31,287 nucleotides of DNA from a virus. The notes beneath the pieces are model-generated. The model was not told the origin of the DNA, made no database searches, and saw nothing but the letters and a program-made list of their open reading frames with translations. Location of the stretch: IMG/VR virus record IMGVR_UViG_3300025083_000139, positions 1-31,287 of that record; one strand, 5' to 3'. Below, piece by piece: positions 3,931 through 30,208 of the stretch. Position 1 is the first letter of the stretch. Every line of letters starts with the position of its first letter. Made by a program: the position numbers and the translations under genes.

Positions 3931-6900
3931 TTAAGTTTCTTTTAGTGATGCTAAAGAATTTAAAATTTGCCTAGCCCCATAGAGGGATGAGAAGGGGAGT
4001 ACCCTTAACATACTTCTAAGTTGACCCTCAGATAATTCTGTATCAGGGCCAATTGACGCAAATAAATCCTTTAGACCCTTAGATACCCCAAGTCCCATAG
4101 ATACAGAGGCTGGTGTAATAGCTCTTGTACTACCATCCATTGTTCCTGTAGCTACTTGATAAAGATAACTGAACAAAGAAGCAGGACCAACTTGGTTCAT
4201 AGTACCAACTAGCCAGTTACCAGCCTTTACTCGTTCCTTCATGTAGTCTGCTTGATCACTACGTCCAATAGAGTTCATCCAAGAACGACTGTAGTACATC
4301 ATGCTGCCCATAAAAGTAGTCACTAACATTGTACGTGCTACTTCTGCAGAATCTCCGTTAGCTGCACGAACACCCATGCGTACTGCTTGTTGTTCTAGTG
4401 ACGATAAAGGGAAAGAAAGAAATTGAAATGCTGTCATACCAATAGGACTACGTAGCCACTTATTAACTGAACCAGCGTTCATTTCTTGTACACTAGTTGT
4501 AGCATCTCTACGCGCAGATAAAGCAAATATATTAGCTAATTCTTTGTCATCCCATTTATCAAGATTTACAGCATCTAATATCTTTTTGTCTTTATCTAAA
4601 TATGTAGAGTGTTTAACTATTTGCTTGTTTATAAGGGTAGCTTGATCCTTAGTGATACCCAATTGCTCTAATTTAATTTCTGAGTAAGGAAGACTACCTT
4701 TACGCGCTGCTGTTTCCCATGATACTGCATAGTTTAAAGATGCTATTCTACGTAGCATGTCAGTAATACCAGTCAGACCTGACATCATAGAGACAAATAC
4801 TCTACTCTTTCCTAGTACTTCATCTAACTTTGTAAACTGTCCAGCAGTTTTGCGAGACTCAAAGATTTCTCCTTCAAATCTACTTTGTGCGCGAGTGAAC
4901 TTAGATACTAGACCATCTGATCCAATACCAGTTGCTGCTGCCATCTCTCTACCTAGACTATCTTTGATCTCACCATTCTCAGCGTCACGTAAAAGCTGTC
5001 TATAACGAGGCACAGTCTTTTTAAGTATCTCAATGGAGTTAGGAACCATGACCATAGGTAGCTCCATAAGAGCAGCCATACCAGCCATGCCCATACTTAC
5101 GCTGTAACTTATTTCCCTAGCTCTATTCATAGTTCTAAGCATACCTGCACTAAGATCAGAACGGTAGATGTGTGTACCCTTGACCATATCATACATATAC
5201 TCAAGTCCACGCCTGTTCTGTTCAGTAGCACCAGCTTTCATAACTTTATTAAGTTGAGTAGCAAAGGTAGAGGCAATATCGTTAGTATCAATACCTCTCT
5301 CAGCTAATGCAATAGCACCAGACATTTGAAAAACGTATGTATCATAAAGATTTTGTACATTCTTTTCTACTAAGTCAGAGAACTTTACTGTCATAATCTC
5401 CCCCTTACGAGGGCCATTGCGAATCTTGACATCAATACTTGTATCAACATCCAATACCATACGAGGTTTTGCTCTGCCAATACCTTTAATTTTAGCACCT
5501 TTGTCAGAAACAAGTTCAACAATAAAGTCTAATTCATCCTCAGGTATACCAACTTGTCGTAAAACTTCCTTAAAATCATCAACATCTAAGTCATTATTAC
5601 CTAACTTCATTCCTAGCTTACCTTCAAAGTCTCTAAACTTTGTCATGTAGCCAGTAGCCAAACGCTTAATAAAGGTATCAATTTCTTGTTTAGTAGCTGC
5701 CTTACCCTTCTTAGCAGATAACTTAGCAGCTACCTTTCTTTCAATCTCAGGCTGTCCTCTACGAATGGCTGCTTCAGCTAGTTCATTAAACACAGGGTTA
5801 TCTGCACCTAACATATCCTCTAGTTTACGAATCTTAACTTGACTACGTAAACGAGGTAGTCCATAATCCTTAATGTCTAACAAAGTATCCTCAAAGAAAC
5901 CAGCTACATTCTTATTTACAGCTTCTTTACCTAAAGCTTCAATGTTAGGACGAAAAGCGTCAGCAATTGCTTGTGCTTCTGGACTTACTTTTTTACCTAA
6001 AAAAGCATCGTAAGCTTCTTCAAAGAGATCATTCTCTCTATTATCTATTACTTCAGTTTTACGGACACGTTTTTTAAAACTCTTAACAGCCCTTTCTACA
6101 GCAGCAGCAGGAATACCTCTAAATCTAGCTTGCGTCCAATCACGTGTTTCTAGCGCACCACCCTTAGCAGCATTAACTGTACCATCAGGATTAGGAAGCC
6201 AACCAGCAAAGGATGTTCCAAGTTTAGAACCAAGAAACCTTGCCTCAGCTACTGTGTCTTTACCAGATAAGTTAGCCATAGATGAAATAACGCCACGTGA
6301 CTTCTGAAAGTCTCCACGTGCAATGGCTACATTAGCCTGTTCTTCAGGACTAAGTTGCTCAAAGGTTCTGGCATCCACACCTGTTCCTGTTAGATTGTCA
6401 GCAGTCTTAAAGTCATCACGTGCCAAAGCTTCCTGAACATACTTTGGACCAAGTACCTCATCGCTATTATTAAAGATAAGGTTTAGTTCATCAGGAGTAA
6501 GGTCTTCCTCATCCACAAACTTACGCCGTGCTGTTTGGATAGCTAGACGCTTGGCACTTTGGTTGATAAAACCACCAATACCAACACCCACAGTACCACT
6601 AATAGCTGTCATAAGCAACAAGTCTTCATTAGTGGTTTCATAGTTACTTTGCTGTCTTAGACGCTCAAGTGCTAATGTTTCTCCTGCAGTAACTCCACCA
6701 AACAAAGCTGCATAGTTTTTTCCTTTAAGGAATTTACTAAGTAGGCTACTTGTCTTAGCTGTAGTTGCTCCCAAGCCAGCCCCTAGGGGACCAGCCCAAG
6801 ATAAAGCAGCACCACTACCTATCATAACTCCTATGTCAGCAGGATCAAATACATCAGATACAACCTGTGCAGCTATACCCTTAATACCAGCCAGACCAAG

Positions 6901-7284
6901 AAGCCGATTGGCTTCCTCAGTCTTTTTAAATTCATTGGCTAGATATCTTGCACGTTCAATACCATTCTCAGAAGCTTCTTCAAGAATACGCTCAATTGCA
7001 TTTCTATTACTAAAGCCACTTGTTAGGTTGGTTACATCCTGTGCAGTGAGTATAGTAGCACCTGCTGAATCAGGGCGGTTAAACTCACCCTTTATATTCA
7101 TATACGTACCTTGAGTAGCTTGACGCTTACCAACTAAGTCCCAAAAGCCAAGGTCTACTACTTCTTCTTCTGCTTCCTTCTGTGCTTTGTACATAGTGTA
7201 GTCACTAACAAAGTCAACTTTAGGAGAAGCAACACTTGTGTTAAACCCAAGGCTTTTTAGAAACTCTTGATTTTCGTCAGCCAT
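3931..7284 (-). CDS. Internal virion protein D (T7 gp16-like)
   Basis: 1117 aa with AGGAG ahead of the ATG. It is the last of the core-protein genes and lies directly before the tail fibre, exactly where T7 carries gene 16, whose product forms the DNA-ejection channel. The protein is long, largely helical in appearance, with hydrophobic Ala/Gly-rich stretches around residues 150-240 (for example GVMIGSGAALSWAGPLGAGLG and a second GTVGVGIGGF segment) and around residues 730-760 (SMGMAGMAALMELPMVMVP), consistent with membrane insertion during ejection. T7 gp16 (about 1318 aa) has a lytic transglycosylase domain at its N-terminus. I see no such domain here, and the shorter length fits its absence. 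The upstream gp15-like protein has a lysozyme domain instead. Assignment rests on position, size and hydrophobic pattern more than on sequence motifs. Confidence 0.75.
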   Translation of the reverse strand: MADENQEFLKSLGFNTSVASPKVDFVSDYTMYKAQKEAEEEVVDLGFWDLVGKRQATQGTYMNIKGEFNRPDSAGATILTAQDVTNLTSGFSNRNAIERILEEASENGIERARYLANEFKKTEEANRLLGLAGIKGIAAQVVSDVFDPADIGVMIGSGAALSWAGPLGAGLGATTAKTSSLLSKFLKGKNYAALFGGVTAGETLALERLRQQSNYETTNEDLLLMTAISGTVGVGIGGFINQSAKRLAIQTARRKFVDEEDLTPDELNLIFNNSDEVLGPKYVQEALARDDFKTADNLTGTGVDARTFEQLSPEEQANVAIARGDFQKSRGVISSMANLSGKDTVAEARFLGSKLGTSFAGWLPNPDGTVNAAKGGALETRDWTQARFRGIPAAAVERAVKSFKKRVRKTEVIDNRENDLFEEAYDAFLGKKVSPEAQAIADAFRPNIEALGKEAVNKNVAGFFEDTLLDIKDYGLPRLRSQVKIRKLEDMLGADNPVFNELAEAAIRRGQPEIERKVAAKLSAKKGKAATKQEIDTFIKRLATGYMTKFRDFEGKLGMKLGNNDLDVDDFKEVLRQVGIPEDELDFIVELVSDKGAKIKGIGRAKPRMVLDVDTSIDVKIRNGPRKGEIMTVKFSDLVEKNVQNLYDTYVFQMSGAIALAERGIDTNDIASTFATQLNKVMKAGATEQNRRGLEYMYDMVKGTHIYRSDLSAGMLRTMNRAREISYSVSMGMAGMAALMELPMVMVPNSIEILKKTVPRYRQLLRDAENGEIKDSLGREMAAATGIGSDGLVSKFTRAQSRFEGEIFESRKTAGQFTKLDEVLGKSRVFVSMMSGLTGITDMLRRIASLNYAVSWETAARKGSLPYSEIKLEQLGITKDQATLINKQIVKHSTYLDKDKKILDAVNLDKWDDKELANIFALSARRDATTSVQEMNAGSVNKWLRSPIGMTAFQFLSFPLSSLEQQAVRMGVRAANGDSAEVARTMLVTTFMGSMMYYSRSWMNSIGRSDQADYMKERVKAGNWLVGTMNQVGPASLFSYLYQVATGTMDGSTRAITPASVSMGLGVSKGLKDLFASIGPDTELSEGQLRSMLRVLPFSSLYGARQILNSLASLKET

Positions 7285-7307: not shown

Positions 7308-10151
7308 TCAGGGAAATATTTGCCCAAAAGCAAAGCTATCTAAGTCTTCTGGTACACCTGAGTCTTTTATAGTTTTGGTTTTTTGTTTAGTCATAACGTC
7401 AGAAGGAAGTTTAAATAAAGTTTCTTTTACAAGTGCGTCACGCAAGGCTTCCATCCTAGGTCTAATTCCACTTGTCTCTGTACTTCCTTCAGCAGCTTCA
7501 TATTCTTTATGGTTTAAAAACTCTTCTGCTGCTTCCTTAAACCGTCCTTCGTTAATTAGTTCAGTAGTGTCGTGATCTTTTTTAATACCACCACGGAATA
7601 CTGTTTGAATTAACTCAACTTGTAACTCTGGTGAATAAGAACTAAACTTAGGAAATAATCTAAGTGTCGTTTTTATCTTATCATTCAAGTCTTTAATTAA
7701 GAAAGCTTTGGCTTCTGCTCTAGTATAAGTTTTATTGGGGTCTACATCAGGGCCATTATGCCCATAACCAACCGTCCAATGTTTCTCATACGTACCATCA
7801 AATTTTCTTAAACGGTACGGTTTAGATTTAAAATCTTCTAAAGCTACTAGTCTTTCAACAAACTTTTTAGACATTTCATCTGGAACTCCCTTAGGCAAAT
7901 CCAAAGAAATATTATCAAGAGTAGACGCACCAGCAGGAGTAATGAGAGAAGGTGGCGTAAAGCTACTCATGTCCATAGATTGATTAAGGGCATCATAAGC
8001 TCTACTCACTGGGTCACTAATGTAACCAGTAGGTGCAGGTGCTAAAGTGATACCAGAGGCTTCTGCGGCTTTCTGTGCCTCAATAGACATTAGTTCTGCT
8101 ACATCAGCTTGCTCTACAGATTTATTTAATTCCTCAGCTAACTCGTTAGCAAACGCTAATGAACTAGTTGATGTTAACTTCTGTAGATTAATAGTGCCTA
8201 CTTGTACCATGTTGCTGTAGTCACCCTCTGCGTATGCCATAAGATGTAACATGTTAACATTTTGTGAGTCTTGCTGCCAAGCAAAGGCCATGTCAGGGTC
8301 AAGGAAACCTGTGGTTTTTGAACCAATAGCTGTTAAACGAGGTTCTATGATTTCTTTTACACGTTCGTTATCAAAGGTACGTTCAAGTATATCATCAAGT
8401 ATTTTCTCATTAGCTTCTGAGTTAAGTTGTCCTTCTACTTTTTTAACCACTGAGAAGTGCCTAGGATCGCCTAAAGCAAGCGCATCAAATTGACTGGTTT
8501 TAAGTGTAAGGTAATTATCTCTAACTTGTGGTATAGCTAAGGCAACAGCTTCTTCTGCTGACATAGGTACTTCTGATATAAACATAATAGCTTTAGCTTG
8601 CTTCTGAACATCCATCAATAACGAGGGGTATCCAATCTGAGCTTCATCTATGTTAGTATTATCAAAGAAATAACCTGTATCAATTGTATCCTTAACTCTT
8701 TCCTCAGTAACTAATGTCTCCACTCTCCCAAAATCTTGGGGAATAGGTTTAGCTGCAAAGGGAGCAATGTCCCTTAGTTCTCTACCTGATTCCAACAAAG
8801 CATTTAGAGCATTTACTTTAAACTCTTGTTCTTTAGAAAGCTTCAAGGTAGACATGCTGCCACCCATAGACTTAAAATCTCTAATAGCTTTTAGCCCACT
8901 ACCTAAGGCAGCTAGTCCTTGGCTACCTTCGCTTACATCCCCACCCTGTAAAAAAGGTAGTCCTGCAGCAATAGGTAACTTATACCTAGCTGGTACTATC
9001 CCATGTGGATTATACATTGTGTTAAAAAAACGAGCTTCTAAGTCAACACGTTGTTGTTGAAGTGTCTCCATTACAGTGTCAAACGTAGCTGGATCATGTC
9101 GTCCTTGAGATTTAGCTATGCTAAGGGCTTCTACTTCATTTCTTAAATCTTGATCAGCTATAAAGAACTGTTCGTCTGCTGCCTTAGCAGACAGTTCTTT
9201 GGTATTAAGAATTTCAATTGTACCACCAGCACCATCAGATACTATAACTTTTTCCCCTATCTTTGCACCTGCAGGATTACCTGTAGCAATAGAGTCAGCT
9301 ACTAGTTTATTTACAGCAGCTTGCTTAATAAGAAGTTTATTAACTTTACTTGTTGCTTTAGTAGAAGCTGCTACGTTGGCATCAATTGTATTAAAGTCTT
9401 TAGCGTACCTATCAATACTTCTTAGAGACTTGCCATCCCTAGTTTGGATAGCATCTACAAATTTAAGATAATTTGTTCTTCCTCTTTTAGATTCCACTAG
9501 AGCAGTAGCTATTACTAGATCATTAGCTCTACGATAGTCACCACCAGTAACAGCTACGTGTTGATTAAAAGCATCAACCATGGCAGGAACAATTTGATCA
9601 TCTTCTGCTACACTACCTGCTCTTCTAATTGTATCATTAAACTGTTGATCCTGCTGCTCTATGTTACGTTTACGCTTTTCAGGACCAAAGTTATTAAACA
9701 TAAATAAAAGTTTATCTTGGTCAACTTTTTGATCAAAGGCTTGTAAAGCAAGAGGATTAATCTGTGCTTCATCTAAGTTCATTCTATAATCAGAATAATG
9801 CCTTGATACTCTTTCGGCTGCTTCTTCAGTAGATAAGGACAACCAATTATTTTGATTAGTAATCCAGTCTTCTTTTAGTCTAGCCGTTAAATTAATTGCA
9901 GCCATCTCAGCTTGATGCTGTTCATTAGCTCTTTTACCGTTTAACTCATCACGTTCTTGTTGTGCTTTTGCTTTCCTTGCTTCTTCTTGCATTAAATTAG
10001 TTACTGGTGAAATAGCATTAAGAAATTGAGATAAGGGTGAGGGCTGTACTATAGGTTTTTCAGGGGATACATAGGTATCTACAGGCCGTGCCGTTGGCGT
10101 GACTTCTGTAGGAGCATTAAGCTCACCTACTAGTACTCTTTGTTTAGCCAT
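7308..10151 (-). CDS. Internal virion protein C (T7 gp15-like) with C-terminal GH24 lysozyme domain
   Basis: 947 aa from the ATG at 10151, chosen over an in-frame GTG at 10160 because AGGTG sits 6 bases ahead of the ATG and the GTG directly abuts the gp14 stop. Residues 1-740 are hydrophilic, helix-rich and lack recognisable motifs, as expected for the gp15 core-protein position. Residues about 760-910 are a T4-lysozyme-type (GH24) muramidase: FVERLVALEDFKSKPYR with the likely catalytic Glu772, then FDG (Asp785) and WTVGYGHN with Thr793 in the place of the T4 Glu/Asp/Thr triad. A later VFRGGIKKD and GIRPRMEALRDAL fit the rest of the fold. The domain would cut peptidoglycan during DNA entry. 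In T7 the wall-degrading domain belongs to gp16, so this is an altered arrangement. Confidence 0.85.
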   Translation of the reverse strand: MAKQRVLVGELNAPTEVTPTARPVDTYVSPEKPIVQPSPLSQFLNAISPVTNLMQEEARKAKAQQERDELNGKRANEQHQAEMAAINLTARLKEDWITNQNNWLSLSTEEAAERVSRHYSDYRMNLDEAQINPLALQAFDQKVDQDKLLFMFNNFGPEKRKRNIEQQDQQFNDTIRRAGSVAEDDQIVPAMVDAFNQHVAVTGGDYRRANDLVIATALVESKRGRTNYLKFVDAIQTRDGKSLRSIDRYAKDFNTIDANVAASTKATSKVNKLLIKQAAVNKLVADSIATGNPAGAKIGEKVIVSDGAGGTIEILNTKELSAKAADEQFFIADQDLRNEVEALSIAKSQGRHDPATFDTVMETLQQQRVDLEARFFNTMYNPHGIVPARYKLPIAAGLPFLQGGDVSEGSQGLAALGSGLKAIRDFKSMGGSMSTLKLSKEQEFKVNALNALLESGRELRDIAPFAAKPIPQDFGRVETLVTEERVKDTIDTGYFFDNTNIDEAQIGYPSLLMDVQKQAKAIMFISEVPMSAEEAVALAIPQVRDNYLTLKTSQFDALALGDPRHFSVVKKVEGQLNSEANEKILDDILERTFDNERVKEIIEPRLTAIGSKTTGFLDPDMAFAWQQDSQNVNMLHLMAYAEGDYSNMVQVGTINLQKLTSTSSLAFANELAEELNKSVEQADVAELMSIEAQKAAEASGITLAPAPTGYISDPVSRAYDALNQSMDMSSFTPPSLITPAGASTLDNISLDLPKGVPDEMSKKFVERLVALEDFKSKPYRLRKFDGTYEKHWTVGYGHNGPDVDPNKTYTRAEAKAFLIKDLNDKIKTTLRLFPKFSSYSPELQVELIQTVFRGGIKKDHDTTELINEGRFKEAAEEFLNHKEYEAAEGSTETSGIRPRMEALRDALVKETLFKLPSDVMTKQKTKTIKDSGVPEDLDSFAFGQIFP

Positions 10152-10160
10152 TTGTTTCAC

Positions 10161-10772
10161 CTATAATTGATTGGAGCCAGCGTTTAGCCATGCTGATGAA
10201 GGATTATATGTAACAGGGGTAAACGCTGCAGTTTGACTGCCAAGGCTATCACCACCTAATCCAAATATATTACTATCACCGTAGTCTATTTCTGCTGCAA
10301 TAGCAGAAGAAGCCGTGCTTAATACAGCCATACCTAAACTTGGTTTTACACCACGTTGAACACTTCTAATTCTTTGCAACATCTGAGCGTTTAGCCCTAG
10401 TTTCTGTACTTCTATGTCATCAAAGAGAGCATTAGCTTGTTGAGAGAAGGTATCAAGTCCCTTGAGTTTATCAGACTCAGCTTGCGAAAGTTTTATAGCT
10501 TCGGTCTGTCCTGCTAAACCAGACTCACCACTAGCCGTTATCATAGCACCTTCACGTTTTAAAGCAGCAATAGCTAAGTCTTGCTTTTTCTGTGAATATT
10601 GTTCGCTAATCTGAACAGCACGTTTTTGTAAGCCTTGTATTTGTAAGTCTCTAGCTTGTGCTGCATTAATTCTGTTTTGCTGGTAGTAAGCTTCTTGTTG
10701 TTTAGCTTTATTAGAAGCGTCTATAAAACCGCCTATTCCTTGAGCGATTGATAGTGCTGTCAATGGTTCCAT
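10161..10772 (-). CDS. Internal virion protein B (T7 gp14-like)
   Basis: 203 aa, close to the 196 aa of T7 gp14. It begins MEPLTALSIAQGIGGFIDAS, followed by a long Gln/Lys/Ala-rich helical stretch (residues about 22-150) that looks coiled-coil prone, a short hydrophobic patch (SLGMAVLSTASSAIAAEI) near residue 150 and a Gly/Asn/Ser-rich tail. The gene is one base from the gp13-like gene upstream and is followed at once by the lysozyme-containing core gene. In T7, gp14 forms the outer-membrane end of the ejection channel with gp15 and gp16. The call relies on gene order, size and composition; no catalytic motif is expected. Confidence 0.8.
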   Translation of the reverse strand: MEPLTALSIAQGIGGFIDASNKAKQQEAYYQQNRINAAQARDLQIQGLQKRAVQISEQYSQKKQDLAIAALKREGAMITASGESGLAGQTEAIKLSQAESDKLKGLDTFSQQANALFDDIEVQKLGLNAQMLQRIRSVQRGVKPSLGMAVLSTASSAIAAEIDYGDSNIFGLGGDSLGSQTAAFTPVTYNPSSAWLNAGSNQL

Positions 10773-10773
10773 A

Positions 10774-11229
10774 TTATATCCTCACAAATTCTAAGAAGGT
10801 CTTGTTACCAACACCCCACGTGTCATGTCTCTTAATGAATACGCATCCTATATACTTTAACCAGTTGACTGCTTCTGTGTACTCAGCGTCACAAGCATTG
10901 GTTAATACTGGATACTTCTTGTTTAGCCTGTTAATCCATAGAAGAGACTCACGTGCAAATTGCCGCCAACCTTTCTTTAGTGGAGGGGCTGTAAGTAGCC
11001 AAGGCATACCTGTCATATCATCTATACCAACTATACCATACATACCAGCTAGTTCACCTGTCTTTGTTACTACAATAGTCCAACATTCTTCTGAGTGATC
11101 AAAACCTTCTTGTAATGCTACCTTAACACTGCCATGTGAGGCTAGTACTTCCTGTGTATCTTCTGGTCTTAAGTTTGTTGCCAGATGATCTACATCAGCC
11201 TGTACACTTGCTCTCACATGTAGTGTCAT
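10774..11229 (-). CDS. T7 gp13-like protein (DUF2833, acetyltransferase-like fold)
   Basis: 151 aa from ATG 11227-11229, which overlaps the stop of tail tubular protein B as TAATG and has AAGGAG five to six bases upstream. An upstream in-frame extension to 11268 would run deep into the previous gene and is rejected. The sequence RASVQADVDHLATNLRPEDTQEV, a central WTIVVTKTGELAGMYGIVG strand pair and a final GCVFIKRHDTWGVGNKTFLEF resemble GNAT-like proteins at the gene 13 position of T7-like phages. In T7, gp13 is needed for particle maturation. Whether it acetylates anything is unknown. Confidence 0.82.
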   Translation of the reverse strand: MTLHVRASVQADVDHLATNLRPEDTQEVLASHGSVKVALQEGFDHSEECWTIVVTKTGELAGMYGIVGIDDMTGMPWLLTAPPLKKGWRQFARESLLWINRLNKKYPVLTNACDAEYTEAVNWLKYIGCVFIKRHDTWGVGNKTFLEFVRI

Positions 11230-13568
11230 TATAGTCTCCTTGAGCGTAGGACGTAGAACCCTTCCCACTCTGCTGATTGGAAGATGCAGGGTAGAGGGTT
11301 ATCACTTTCTAATACAATACTTACTGAATTAGATTTACCTATCACACCAAAACGGTATGTACCAGACTCAATAGCAGCACGATTAAGTATGTTAGCACCA
11401 CTACCTACTACACGGCCTGTAAAGGTACGCACATATGGTGTACGTTTAAGAGGCGTTACGGTTACAGTAAAAAAGCCTGTATTGTTATAAACAACAGCAT
11501 AGTTTCTTAATTGTAATTGTCCAGTAGTAATAGGTTTGTTATCTTGCTTTAGTACAGGCTCAGAGAATTGGTATTTAAAGGTAAACGGAATACCAGCAAA
11601 GACTTTCTCAGAGTTAGCTAACTTTGCAGCTACCTCACTAAGTAAAATAGTTTCTCCTGTTTGATCTACATATATTACATTAGAGTCTACATAAGGTATA
11701 GTAGTAAGTCCACCTGTTTCTAACATTACGCGTCTATCTAAATGAATAGAGAAGTTACCTGTAGTATGAACTGTAGCATCATCAACAGACAAATTAATCT
11801 TTTCTAAAAACAAGTTGTTACTACGTTTAATTAACAAAAAGACATCTGCTCTGTTAAAAGATACACCTATTACATCACCATCAAATACCCAACGTGACCA
11901 TGAAGACTGTAGTTTTTCTCTACCACTCCAATAGTAACGGTAAACATAAATAGCTTTAGGATCATCTGCAGCTTGTGCAATAAGCATGTCCTCATTAGAG
12001 GATGTTTGTATATTTGTTGTAACACCCTTAAGATACTCAGGTACATGCGCTGTAATTTCTGTAGCATCATTGACATCAGTATCAGTGTCTACAAAATATT
12101 CCCACATACCTGAAAAGGCACCACGATTAGAAGAGAAGTATACATACTTACCAGCCTGTGATGGCTTGGCTATAAGACTAGCTTCAAACTCAGTGGTACT
12201 AGCTACGTTAATAGTTTCAGGAGTAAGGATAGGATTAGCAGTAACCTTGAACTGTGTTAAATCAGAGAAGAGTAATAGTGACTCGTTAAAAGGTACTGCA
12301 TGTTTAAGGATACTAACTTTGTTAGAGGACACTGCTACGTCAATAGGGTCGCTGTCTATAATTGTTAGTACTGACTTACGGAAGAAATCAAAATCTACAA
12401 ACTCACCTGCTCTAGCAAAGATAACATTTTCATCAGCTAGTAAACCTAGTCTATTACGATGAAAGAAAATATCAGCAATAGGATAACCTACAAAAGAAGG
12501 AAAGGGATTTGTATCATCGTTACCTACTTGACGGTCAGCATAACTAACTTCATCAAACTGAAAGTCACCACTAATTAATTTTGATAACTTATGTGGAAGG
12601 GTAGTAGCATCTAACTCAATAAGGGTATTAAGTTCTGTTGTTTCTTTCCACACACCATCAGTAAATTTAACATAGTAATCATCTTGTGCTTTCTGGTTAT
12701 CACCTGAGACCTTAATAACAAAATCATTTGGTCCCTCAATAGGAAGCTTTTTAAAGTCTGATGTTTCATTCTTGAATACAAGTAAGTGTTCGTTACCATG
12801 TGAGTCACCTACTTCTACTTGGAAGTCTGTAGTATCAGTTGACTGAATGTGTAATACTGAGCCATAGCGAGTAATTGTAATACCTGAAATAGCATTACCA
12901 TTAATAATGGCATCATAATAAGCAGTGTTTACAGTAGCAGCTGAAAAAGTATCTAAGTTTTCAGCAATCAAGTCAGTAGATGCACCACGCTCTGCGTCTT
13001 GTGTAGCTTGAGCGGTACCTTGAGTAGAAGATTCTGTGGCAAATTCTACTGTTTCTGTGGTTGAACCTTTAGTAATCCTTAAACGATATGTAGAAGCATA
13101 GTCAGCCTGACGTACATATACTAATGCCTCAGGGTTACGTGTAGGACTTGTGGCAGTGCCTTTAGCTACTGTTATATTCTTGTTTACAATAAAGGTTGTA
13201 TCTGCAATAGATACAGCAGCTAACTCTAAGCTAGGGTTGGTCAATCCATTCAAATAAGTAGCAGCATTATTGGTAACAGTCTTAGACACACCATCTTTGT
13301 CAAACACCCTGATATCACCAGCCGTATCTACCACCATAGAGTAGAACTCATTCTCATCCCTACGGATAGTATGTATAAAAGCTTTATCTAAATCAGAAAT
13401 AGTACCCAGATCAGCAACATGCTCAGAACTAGGACGCTTAGACAGTCCTGTTACCACGCTAGACAAAGCGTTCTCTTGTAGTTCTGCTTGTGTAGCTAGA
13501 CGTAGTGATGGTGGCTGTTGTGATACACCGTTAATAAGGTTAGGGATAGATTGACTGATGAGTGCCAT
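11229..13568 (-). CDS. Tail tubular protein B, nozzle (T7 gp12-like)
   Basis: 779 aa, very close to T7 gp12 (794 aa). The N-terminus ALISQSIPNLINGVSQQPPSLR is the characteristic start of this family, and GLSKRPSSEHVADL and the central FPSFVGYPIADIFFHRNRLGLLADENVIFARAG stretch are also typical. The start codon overlaps the stop of the tail tubular A gene (TAATG), indicating coupled translation and close stoichiometry. The product forms the hexameric nozzle below the gp11 adaptor ring and contacts fibres and core proteins. Complete, with no sign of damage. Confidence 0.96.
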   Translation of the reverse strand: MALISQSIPNLINGVSQQPPSLRLATQAELQENALSSVVTGLSKRPSSEHVADLGTISDLDKAFIHTIRRDENEFYSMVVDTAGDIRVFDKDGVSKTVTNNAATYLNGLTNPSLELAAVSIADTTFIVNKNITVAKGTATSPTRNPEALVYVRQADYASTYRLRITKGSTTETVEFATESSTQGTAQATQDAERGASTDLIAENLDTFSAATVNTAYYDAIINGNAISGITITRYGSVLHIQSTDTTDFQVEVGDSHGNEHLLVFKNETSDFKKLPIEGPNDFVIKVSGDNQKAQDDYYVKFTDGVWKETTELNTLIELDATTLPHKLSKLISGDFQFDEVSYADRQVGNDDTNPFPSFVGYPIADIFFHRNRLGLLADENVIFARAGEFVDFDFFRKSVLTIIDSDPIDVAVSSNKVSILKHAVPFNESLLLFSDLTQFKVTANPILTPETINVASTTEFEASLIAKPSQAGKYVYFSSNRGAFSGMWEYFVDTDTDVNDATEITAHVPEYLKGVTTNIQTSSNEDMLIAQAADDPKAIYVYRYYWSGREKLQSSWSRWVFDGDVIGVSFNRADVFLLIKRSNNLFLEKINLSVDDATVHTTGNFSIHLDRRVMLETGGLTTIPYVDSNVIYVDQTGETILLSEVAAKLANSEKVFAGIPFTFKYQFSEPVLKQDNKPITTGQLQLRNYAVVYNNTGFFTVTVTPLKRTPYVRTFTGRVVGSGANILNRAAIESGTYRFGVIGKSNSVSIVLESDNPLPCIFQSAEWEGFYVLRSRRL

Positions 13569-27781: not shown

Positions 27782-29431
27782 CTATGCAAAAAAGTACTGT
27801 GATTTCAGTATGTTCTGCAGGTCTAAATTACCTGTAGCTGGTGGTTGTGGAACATCATTTGTTCCAAGTACGACAGTAGCATGTTCTCGTAGCTCTGTCA
27901 ATACATCATGTTCAGTATACAACCGAACAAATTCTTCTCGTAATACTTCAGACAAGCGAGGCATGTCAGAACTGTGAGTACCATAGCTGTCGTGTACCAT
28001 GGCAAAGTCCTTGATGCCCTGCTTCTTACACGTGTTGATAGTCTTAGTCATAGCTGCAGCATCCAGTGAGTGGATGAAGTTAGGGCTCGCACCTGAAGCA
28101 GTACGCCTCTTACTCACCTCGTTGTCTCTGTCCTTGTTAAAGATAAGCGCAACTGTAGTACCATTGATGTGTGTCCAGATACGTTTCTTATCTACCTCGT
28201 TGTAGTTCTGCATGACCAGCCAGTTAGTAGGTGTAACCCACTCCATGTGCCTGTTGTGTTCAGCATAGACAGCACCCACTTCCTTGATGTAGTCCATCAC
28301 TTGTCGTGCTGACTCGATGACACCATTGATAGCTGACCACACGTGCTTGGATAAGTAAGCAGAAGCTTTGAACAAGTCATCACCAAAGATGTCAGGCTCA
28401 CCCTTCTCAATCCTGTCTCGTATCGCTTCGTGAATGTAGGTACGACAGGCGTGGATAGTACCACTGTAAGGTACAATCATCACTGGTCTTTTAGTCAATG
28501 CCCTGTTGATACCAAACTCTATAAATTTTTTTGCTAAAATTTCTCCCTGTTCTGCATCCTTTAGGACTGTCCTCATTGCTTCATCTGCTACCTCAGTATA
28601 GATATCCTGAGGCAGAGTGGCAGGTATCAGATTAGTAGCCCTACCACCACGCTCATCACGCAGGATAGCTGACAGGTGTTGTAGTCCATTACAGCTACCA
28701 TCAACAGACGTAGGTAGATGAGATATGAAACCCCAGCCCTGCCTGACTAGGCCAGTAAACTCAAGACACCAGCCTAAGAATTGGTAAGGCTTGTCAGCAT
28801 CCAGCCACCACACGTTATCGTATGGGTTGTCAGCCACTCGCTTGATCTCATCAGCATTATCCCATGCCCATGACTCACGCTGGTCTAGTGTTACCTTGTC
28901 GTTACCATACAAGTTAGCACCATGAATACAAAGCCAACGTGCGTCATCCCAATTGTTGATAGGCTTACCATCTCTGAATATCAGCAAGGCTTTGCTCCAG
29001 TCTGCTGACTGAGGTGACATGAAGGTACTACTAGCATACTTGCGTGACCTGAAGTCATTCTGCCACACATAGTAGAACTCATCGTACTTACTGTACTGCT
29101 CGCCAATCTGTAGTGTACGCTCCACTTGGATACGTTTACTCACTGTCCTATTGTTGAACGTGTATATCTCGTTGCGTTTCTTTGACCAGTTCTTAAACTG
29201 TTGTCTCTCCTCTTCATCCATAGCTGCTGGTTCCTTGTTAAAGGGGTAGCTAGGCAGTGGTCTGTCCTCTCTGGCTGGTAGCCCACCCCACTCCTGTCCA
29301 CTGTCCCACAGTGAGCGTATAATCGCCAGCAATGGCCTATTGATTTTCCATGCAGTGTGCTGCAGTGTGTTAAGGCAGTCAAATTCCTGAGATAAGTCTC
29401 GCTTTTTCAGCTTGGTCATGTGTTCCTTCAT
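27782..29431 (-). CDS. T7-type RNA polymerase, C-terminal catalytic part of a split enzyme
   Basis: 549 aa beginning MKEHMTKLKKRDLSQEF, then LQHTAWKIN aligned to T7 residues 323-331. All catalytic positions of the single-subunit family are present: Asp244 in SVDGSCNG (T7 Asp537), Lys314 in ALTKRPVM (Lys631), Tyr322 in VPYSG (Tyr639) and Asp481 in MVHDSYG (Asp812). It ends YFFA like the T7 FAFA foot. By itself it lacks the N-terminal domain that opens the promoter and binds nascent RNA; that part is the preceding ORF, in the same frame, ending 3 bases before this ATG. AGAGGA lies 6 bases ahead of the ATG. Together the two ORFs (806 aa) cover nearly all of T7 RNAP (883 aa). Confidence 0.93.
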   Translation of the reverse strand: MKEHMTKLKKRDLSQEFDCLNTLQHTAWKINRPLLAIIRSLWDSGQEWGGLPAREDRPLPSYPFNKEPAAMDEEERQQFKNWSKKRNEIYTFNNRTVSKRIQVERTLQIGEQYSKYDEFYYVWQNDFRSRKYASSTFMSPQSADWSKALLIFRDGKPINNWDDARWLCIHGANLYGNDKVTLDQRESWAWDNADEIKRVADNPYDNVWWLDADKPYQFLGWCLEFTGLVRQGWGFISHLPTSVDGSCNGLQHLSAILRDERGGRATNLIPATLPQDIYTEVADEAMRTVLKDAEQGEILAKKFIEFGINRALTKRPVMIVPYSGTIHACRTYIHEAIRDRIEKGEPDIFGDDLFKASAYLSKHVWSAINGVIESARQVMDYIKEVGAVYAEHNRHMEWVTPTNWLVMQNYNEVDKKRIWTHINGTTVALIFNKDRDNEVSKRRTASGASPNFIHSLDAAAMTKTINTCKKQGIKDFAMVHDSYGTHSSDMPRLSEVLREEFVRLYTEHDVLTELREHATVVLGTNDVPQPPATGNLDLQNILKSQYFFA

Positions 29432-29434
29432 AAC

Positions 29435-30208
29435 TTATCCTCTTCTGATTATAGGCACATCATCTAAAAAGCCTGCGTGATACCCACCACCATACACTGC
29501 AGTCCAGTCCTTGGGTGGTATGATACAGGGTGTCCAGCGTGGCCTTGCTGTCTCCATGTGTTCATTAAAAGCCTTGACCCATTCCTCTGTGATAGGTGTT
29601 GCGCGTAGGAATGTAGTGGTCTTGTTCCTTGCTGTTGATAGTTTCTCTAGTCGTACTACACCTGTGTTCTGTATGACTACATCTACTAGGCGTAGTCCTA
29701 CATGGATACGTTCTTCACTACTCCATGCTAAGTCTTTGTACCCATCCTTGTTCATCTTGTTAGTCAGACCAAAGCGTCTGGCAGTCATGCCTTTCTCATT
29801 GGCTTTCTTGATTGTGTTCTTTGCTATGCTGCCCTCTGCAGCTATCCACTTATCAAGTCTGTCCTGCATCTCTACGTTAGAACCTATAGCCTTTGCCACT
29901 TTCATTAGTGTGTTAGACTTGCTGATCCCATCAACCATAGACACAAGCGTTAGGTATGCTACCTTGTCAGGTGCCATGTCTTGCAGTCTCTTGTAAGCTA
30001 TGTCTCTGTTACTTGTTGGTGTGTTCTGTAGTTTCTTTACACCATCTGCAGTAGCAGATACGACAGTAGCTATGATAGTCCTGCCATGTAGGGTGGCAGA
30101 CTCCCTGCCCTTAGCCATGGCACCATCTCTTTCCTTACGAAATCTGTTGATACCTGCAGTCAACATTTCCTGTTCAAGTTGCAGTTGATTTTCTAAACTG
30201 TACCCCAA
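29435..30208 (-). CDS. T7-type RNA polymerase, N-terminal part of a split enzyme
   Basis: 257 aa. LENQLQLEQEMLTAGINRFR aligns with the T7 segment LAREQLALEHESYEMGEARF, KVAYLTLVSMVDG with EAVAYITIKTTL, ERIHVGLRLVDVVIQNTGVV with DSIHVGVRCIEMLIESTGMV, and PCIIPPKDWTAVYGGGYHAG with PCVVPPKPWTGITGGGYWAN. It stops at a TAA equivalent to about T7 residue 300, before the thumb. The start is TTG at 30206-30208 with AGGGGGG 7 bases upstream; a stop codon lies five codons further upstream, and the next ATG (30166) has no useful ribosome binding site. A rare start codon may keep synthesis low. This part should supply promoter melting and upstream DNA contacts. Confidence 0.92.
   Translation of the reverse strand: MGYSLENQLQLEQEMLTAGINRFRKERDGAMAKGRESATLHGRTIIATVVSATADGVKKLQNTPTSNRDIAYKRLQDMAPDKVAYLTLVSMVDGISKSNTLMKVAKAIGSNVEMQDRLDKWIAAEGSIAKNTIKKANEKGMTARRFGLTNKMNKDGYKDLAWSSEERIHVGLRLVDVVIQNTGVVRLEKLSTARNKTTTFLRATPITEEWVKAFNEHMETARPRWTPCIIPPKDWTAVYGGGYHAGFLDDVPIIRRG
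29438..29443 (-). promoter_or_regulatory. Ribosome binding site for the second polymerase ORF
   Basis: AGAGGA on the minus strand, at the end of the first polymerase ORF and immediately before its TAA, is 6 bases from the ATG of the catalytic ORF. The layout GGA-TAA-GTT-ATG is ideal for termination followed by re-initiation, and supports a real gene split instead of a chance nonsense mutation. Confidence 0.7.
30191..30204 (+). promoter_or_regulatory. Reverse-oriented copy of the promoter-like element at the polymerase gene start
   Basis: Plus-strand TTCTAAACTGTACC is identical over 14 nt to the upstream half of the minus-strand element at 27765-27781, but points the other way and continues CCAAGAG instead of TATAG. 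It covers codons 2-6 of the polymerase gene and ends one base before its TTG start codon. It could be an inactive or antisense binding site for the phage polymerase. Function is inferred only. Confidence 0.5.

Follow-up and report, generated by a model that had tools for sequence, protein, structure and literature searches.

In phage T7 gp14 opens the outer membrane, gp15 builds a tube that spans the periplasm, and the inner membrane is reached by gp16 (PMC8954989), whose N-terminus carries the wall-cutting activity as an SLT transglycosylase. Some gp15-like proteins carry the lysozyme activity that T7 has on gp16, and the gp16 hydrolase domain can swap to a gp15 homologue (2022 review PMC8954989). 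The phiKMV gp36 and SP6 gp36 proteins and K1-5 are listed as virion lysozymes in a 2017 review, the phiKMV domain being C-terminal and active (PMC5380687); for phiKMV gp36 the work cited in PMC5380687 is that of Lavigne 2004 and Briers 2006, and for K1-5/K1E gp35 and SP6 gp36 as virion lysozymes PMC5380687 and PMC8954989 cite Moak and Molineux 2004. In its deposited record phiKMV gp36 is annotated as structural, with a C-terminal lysozyme domain, and as a component of the phage injection needle. A lysozyme on a gp15-like protein is not new, having been known since 2004, and is ordinary for the field. What is new at the locus described here is that close relatives appear to have exchanged the C-terminal end of this protein for unrelated, predicted wall-cutting enzymes, much as parts are changed in a plug-in slot.

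The window analyzed is the whole 31,287-nucleotide stretch of the IMG/VR virus record, and its gp13-like to gp16-like genes lie on the minus strand. Gene order is gp12 nozzle (PF25675), gp13-like, gp14-like, the lysozyme-bearing gene, gp16-like and tail fibre (PF03906). The gp13-like protein (10774..11268) matches phrog_308 with E=1e-29 and PF11090 weakly, whilst the gp14-like ejection protein (10161..10772) matches PF24072 T7_gp14 with E=1.7e-11. The gene in the gp15 position (7308..10160) is a minus-strand ORF encoding 950 aa from a GTG at 10160 or 947 aa from an in-frame ATG at 10151, and its assignment as an ejection (core) protein with a C-terminal GH24 lysozyme draws on the ORF and its translation, a PF00959 match and gene order. 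Elsewhere in the window two neighbouring minus-strand ORFs, 29435-30208 (257 aa) and 27782-29431 (549 aa), together encode a T7-like RNA polymerase, the split falling after the N-terminal domain with AGAGGATA just before the ATG of the second ORF. The same split is present in relative L012 (L147:9938-12369; 74% and about 80% identity), which has a further break in the catalytic part of the polymerase.

A Pfam search of the 950-aa protein found a single domain, PF00959 Phage_lysozyme at residues 777-902 (7455..7832), with E=7.3e-10 and a score of 39.7 bits against a curated cut-off of 22.3, and the protein also matched PHROG 7 (endolysin) with E=4.2e-13. When the last 200 aa alone were used in a PDB sequence search, the phage 21 endolysin R21 (3hdf) was matched with E=2.4e-6, the alignment running through WTVGYGHNGPDVDPNKTYT in the window and WTVCHGHTGKDIMLGKTYT in R21. 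An AlphaFold2 model of the lysozyme region was of moderate confidence (pLDDT 67), and a Foldseek comparison of this region recovered the lysozymes of R21 and T4 as moderate matches (probability 1.00, best E=2.7e-3, TM about 0.4-0.5). The predicted catalytic Glu (7836..7838) and active-site Asp (7797..7799) and Thr (7773..7775) are residues 772, 785 and 793 counted from the ATG, or 775, 788 and 796 from the GTG. The earlier note had placed a GH24 domain with Glu772, Asp785 and Thr793 at the C-terminus of the 947-aa protein; its numbering is that from the ATG at 10151, and all three residues are found there. A profile score above cut-off, the Glu-Asp-Thr set and a moderately matched lysozyme fold confirm the predicted assignment of the domain as a GH24 (T4-type) lysozyme. 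The protein ends in a tail, KTIKDSGVPEDLDSFAFGQIFP (7311..7376), which is present in relatives L011 and L023 of the same cassette type and absent from L008, L012 and L013.

These data bear on whether the domain could be a catalytically dead module with a structural or wall-binding function. Within the domain, model confidence is lowest in the stretch surrounding the catalytic Glu and Asp, and the window has spacings of 13 (Glu-Asp) and 8 (Asp-Thr), longer than the 9 and 6 of R21. Against this, all three residues are invariant across divergent copies (6/6 homologous sequences, among which the five relatives share 49-80% identity with the window), and relatives place other enzyme families, rather than binding domains, at this position. 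A dead module is accordingly a very unlikely explanation of the domain.

The downstream gene encodes a gp16-like ejection protein of 1117 aa (3931..7284), which matches phrog_342 ('internal virion protein with endolysin domain') with E=3.5e-70, as expected of the T7 gp16 family, although the match starts only at profile position 287 of 1235. No Pfam match and no meaningful NCBIfam match were obtained for this protein, and comparison of a profile built from seven of its relatives with one of phage SLT domains revealed no similarity; the same Pfam test applied to T7 gp16 as a control detected SLT at residues 15-127 with E=1.7e-31. A hidden transglycosylase in the 1117-aa protein was considered and rejected, as the Pfam, NCBIfam and profile comparisons detected none. 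The absence of a recognizable transglycosylase from this protein agrees with the earlier note, and neither of the outcomes it had named as contrary to its reading, a transglycosylase in the 1117-aa protein or a 947-aa protein without GH24, was observed. Its contrast with T7 is likewise correct, since T7 uses another enzyme family on another carrier. The T7 ejectosome (PMC8954989) and the window share the gp14-gp15-gp16 gene order, with homologous gp14 and gp16 proteins, but T7 gp15 carries no enzyme and is not detectably homologous to the window protein.

Comparison of the core of the window protein with T7 gp15 gave no detectable sequence similarity (hhalign probability 0.3%), and neither did comparison with K1-5 gp35 (no BLAST or phmmer match; hhalign probability 1.0%) or with phiKMV gp36 (BLAST, phmmer). 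Homology of the core to T7 gp15 or K1-5 gp35 was thus rejected as undetectable by profile comparison. A weak profile match was obtained to gp15-position proteins of RHEph01, Lo5R7ANS and HTVC134P (96.5%, 10% identity). The label 'gp15-like' and the proposed tube role consequently rest on gene order, and these data give no polarity for a move 'from gp16 to gp15'. Like the window protein, phiKMV gp36 occupies the gp15 position, has a C-terminal lysozyme and is followed by a gp16-like protein, and it matches phrog_2083 'internal virion lysozyme motif'. In K1-5, PF00959 was detected by the same test at residues 776-910 of 982 aa, nearly the same place as in the window protein, and the gp16-like protein again lacks SLT. 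Lysozyme activity is published for both phiKMV and K1-5. The gp14-like/gp16-like position and the C-terminal lysozyme of the phiKMV gp36/K1-5 gp35 type are therefore found in the window protein, whereas a homologous core is not: that of phiKMV gp36 is not detectably similar to it and those of K1-5/K1E gp35 and SP6 gp36 are not detectably homologous. Nor was cassette exchange found described for any of these proteins in the literature searched. By layout the window protein would work like the phiKMV gp36/K1-5 gp35 type, although sequence comparison does not support common descent of the core.

The pelagiphages HTVC134P and Bylgja (gp36 / gp11, pesticin domain protein) are marine autographiviruses which, like the window, have a lysozyme in the ejection-protein operon. 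In HTVC134P, unlike the window, a split gp16-like protein bears at its N-terminus a lysozyme of the pesticin type, such that the enzyme has changed and the carrier has been kept; Bylgja is annotated in the same way.

To describe the C-termini of related proteins, 79 loci of 172 confirmed relatives were kept from a gp16 profile search and, together with earlier loci, yielded 78 gp15-like proteins, all relatives being metagenomic contigs and the set including some near-identical copies and some proteins truncated at the start. C-termini were sorted using local cassette HMMs trained on members of the same set. A predicted enzyme cassette (GH24, pesticin-type GH24, HES/transglycosylase-like, CHAP, or two of these) ends 72 of the 78 proteins. 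The pesticin-type GH24 cassette is the most frequent (24/78), followed by the HES/transglycosylase-like cassette (13/78), GH24 plus CHAP (9/78) and GH24 plus an unnamed domain (8/78), whilst window-type GH24, CHAP alone and HES plus CHAP are each present in 6/78; the unnamed domain stands alone in 4/78, two of them truncated, and 2/78 have no cassette. Among representatives, PF00959 scored above cut-off in L011, L023, L031, L045, L066 and L068, and CHAP did so in L053. The domain layout in related marine phages, to which the earlier note had pointed, thus bears out GH24 at the gp15-like C-terminus in some relatives, whilst others carry unrelated cassettes there.

Assignment of the HES domain is less certain. 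Pfam support is weak, with 14/21 members matching PF18013 Phage_lysozyme2 (best 3e-5) and 3/21 matching SLT (best 0.003), and hhalign pairs the HES profile with phage SLT domains, with the catalytic Glu and a G-x-x-QF motif in register (E=7e-5, probability 62%). A fair model of the L008-type cassette (pLDDT 79) found no fold match in the PDB (best E 2.9), and PDB sequence searches with this cassette gave nothing convincing, so that the assignment rests on the motif and weak profile hits. The L008 cassette is, with less certainty than the window domain, a putative transglycosylase/lysozyme-like domain.

Several further features of these proteins and contigs were observed. The unnamed domain, of about 170 aa, follows or replaces the lysozyme in the C-termini of L041, L066, L078, L096 and L097 and resembles the C-terminal part of phrog_7348 (annotated endolysin). 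The gp15-like proteins of L053, L060, L085 and L089 have two predicted wall-cutting domains in series, glycosidase-like and CHAP, and those of L079 (4870-6975) and L099 have no recognized cassette. When other ORFs of the clade loci were scanned, no cassette domains were found save a 60-aa fragment at the edge of L056, which is probably the end of the gp15-like gene of that contig; a cassette-domain match in L024 belongs to a different phage. Other viral contigs (L121-L124, L126, L127, L130, L131 and L135) also encode the HES...GRGLMQFEP domain, there on separate proteins about 207-490 aa long, some of which are possibly endolysins.

The limits of the exchanged segment are seen most closely in contig L008. 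The window and L008 are 91.2% identical in DNA from 11300 to 7924 (to codon 746), no identity is present from 7923 to 7301, and identity resumes from 7300, at the ribosome-binding site of gp16, at 86.2%. The segment 7301..7923 therefore has no DNA homology to L008 by blastn and sliding identity, between flanks that are 91% and 86% identical, and in place of GH24 L008 has a domain with the motif HETGG...GPARGLLQYEP. The Ala-Gly-Ala at 7926..7934 (residues 743-745 in the 950 numbering) belongs to a junction motif, ITPAGAST, and the DNA match to L008 extends only one codon past this tripeptide. An Ala-x-Ala is present at the core/cassette junction in 22/26 sequence clusters compared with 41% of background windows in the same proteins, an enrichment with a nominal p=8e-6 for clusters that are not independent. 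Junction motif variants ITPAGAST, DEAQAAT and SDEAEAAT were seen in the window, L012, L013, L021, L031, L054, L077 and L094, and a degenerate pattern for the window-type junction returned raw matches. By eye the stretch before the Ala-x-Ala does not look like a signal peptide. The Ala-x-Ala could serve as a linker, as a patch for recombination or for cleavage.

Differences in cassette between close relatives could also arise as chimeras of metagenome assembly, an explanation to which the presence of the exact L008 junction in one contig only lends something. However, the boundaries are in frame at a conserved motif, the downstream gene is intact, and each main cassette class occurs at the same place in several independent contigs, leaving assembly chimeras an exceedingly improbable source of the pattern.

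Exchange is not confined to the C-terminus, as the IMG/VR relatives of the window protein are three-part mosaics of a module A, a module B and the part after codon 745. Module A (codons 1-268; 9357..10160) is an interchangeable N-terminal part of the core, recognized from DNA matches and allele comparison: L013 and L021 are about 90% DNA-identical to the window up to its end and then diverge, whilst L009 and L012 carry a different allele there, with about 16% aa identity across much of its length, and match the window beyond it. Module B (codons 269-745; 7926..9356), recognized from per-50-residue identity and DNA matches, is the middle of the core and is represented by three or more alleles among relatives; beyond codon 745 several unrelated forms are seen. 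Module A is swapped as a block between relatives (L009 and L012 versus L008, L013 and L021), independently of the enzyme cassette.

When cassette architectures were placed on a tree of the gp16-like protein with 49 tips, at least 20 changes were needed (minimum possible 8, shuffled mean 31.7), on a quick tree with long branches flagged by the program and for a gene that may itself recombine. Clustering of the HES class on this tree was that expected by chance (8 changes for 8 tips, shuffled mean 7.6). The window belongs to a clade of five members with gp16 proteins 88-90% identical to that of the window, and these five carry three classes of cassette, window-type GH24 (window, L011 and L023), pesticin-type GH24 (L012) and HES (L008). 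L085 and L086 have nearly identical gp16 proteins and CHAP is present in only one of the two. The L079 protein is 75% identical to that of L081 over about 700 residues and ends at 702, just before gp16, whereas L081 continues past this point into a HES cassette.

It could be supposed that an ancestor replaced the gp16 transglycosylase by a gp15-borne GH24 once, with stability since. SLT is present on T7 gp16 and absent from the gp16-like protein of the window, and the K1-5 and phiKMV layout indicates that gp15-borne lysozymes can be stable, but such a history is hard to reconcile with the number of changes on the gp16 tree, with three classes among the nearest relatives of the window, or with a cassette absent in L079 and present in its close relative L081, and it has little probability. 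The proposal of the earlier note that the ejection machine had swapped both enzyme family and carrier protein thus stands as a contrast with T7; it does not stand as a single swap, given repeated exchange at the same site, nor as a new arrangement, given phiKMV, SP6 and K1-5/K1E. Judged from these sequences, the cassette of close relatives has been exchanged repeatedly between several predicted enzyme families at the same site.

The domain, its conserved residues, the gene order, the exchange boundaries and the repeated exchange on the tree are best explained if the C-terminus of the gp15-position ejection protein of this marine T7-like phage is an exchange site for predicted peptidoglycan hydrolases whose role would be to breach the wall so that DNA can enter, which is quite probably the case. 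Location in the virion, enzyme activity and timing, as well as selection exerted by the host wall or by immunity, are what we infer for this protein. On infection the gp15-position protein would leave the capsid and help form a tube across the periplasm, and most likely its C-terminal domain would cut glycan strands during tube assembly, the GH24 muramidase cleaving MurNAc-GlcNAc bonds so that the tube could pass the wall, with Glu772 as the presumed general acid acting with Asp785 and Thr793. The gp16-like protein would have lost, or never had, a T7-type transglycosylase. Recombination would replace the whole cassette just after the Ala-x-Ala linker and before gp16, incoming cassettes being putative lysozymes of two subtypes, a transglycosylase/lysozyme-like domain, CHAP, or pairs of these.

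A role as an endolysin, serving mainly host lysis at the end of infection rather than DNA entry, was also considered, as no separate endolysin was recognized among the scanned ORFs of the window or ten further ORFs of the 40-kb relative L012. Endolysins can be unrecognizable, however; moreover, the carrier of the domain is a core protein encoded between gp14 and gp16, and biochemically studied proteins with such a layout are virion-associated (PMC5380687, PMC8954989). A role mainly as endolysin is thus unlikely and use of the domain in DNA entry is preferred, though a second function in lysis is conceivable. An extended form of the exchange-site interpretation, in which the C-terminus is a dedicated exchange socket across a large marine phage clade, the Ala-x-Ala is a recombination site and perhaps also a site of cleavage freeing the enzyme in the periplasm, and diversity is kept by host wall chemistry or inhibitors, is conceivable but rather doubtful.

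That whole enzyme families have been exchanged time and again at a single site, with neighbouring genes nearly identical, is a sharper statement than the known occurrence of gp15-borne lysozymes. Both ejection models in PMC8954989 have gp16 do the cutting; with the enzyme on the gp15-like protein, it is this protein that would have to arrive at the wall early enough to cut it. The 2017 review (PMC5380687) had found virion proteins with two enzyme domains in phages infecting Gram-positive bacteria and in no others; two predicted enzyme domains on one protein are seen here in L053 and L085. In marine viromes internal virion proteins are among the under-recruiting genes of metaviromic islands, for a reason called obscure (PMC3909814); in contrast to the present data, no enzyme cassettes are identified in the parts of that source considered here. 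Cassette exchange is a candidate cause of this under-recruitment, and the exchange-socket interpretation, if true, would help explain why internal virion proteins fall in metaviromic islands. These data suggest that entry through the wall is a trait of host interaction that changes fast, as receptor binding does.
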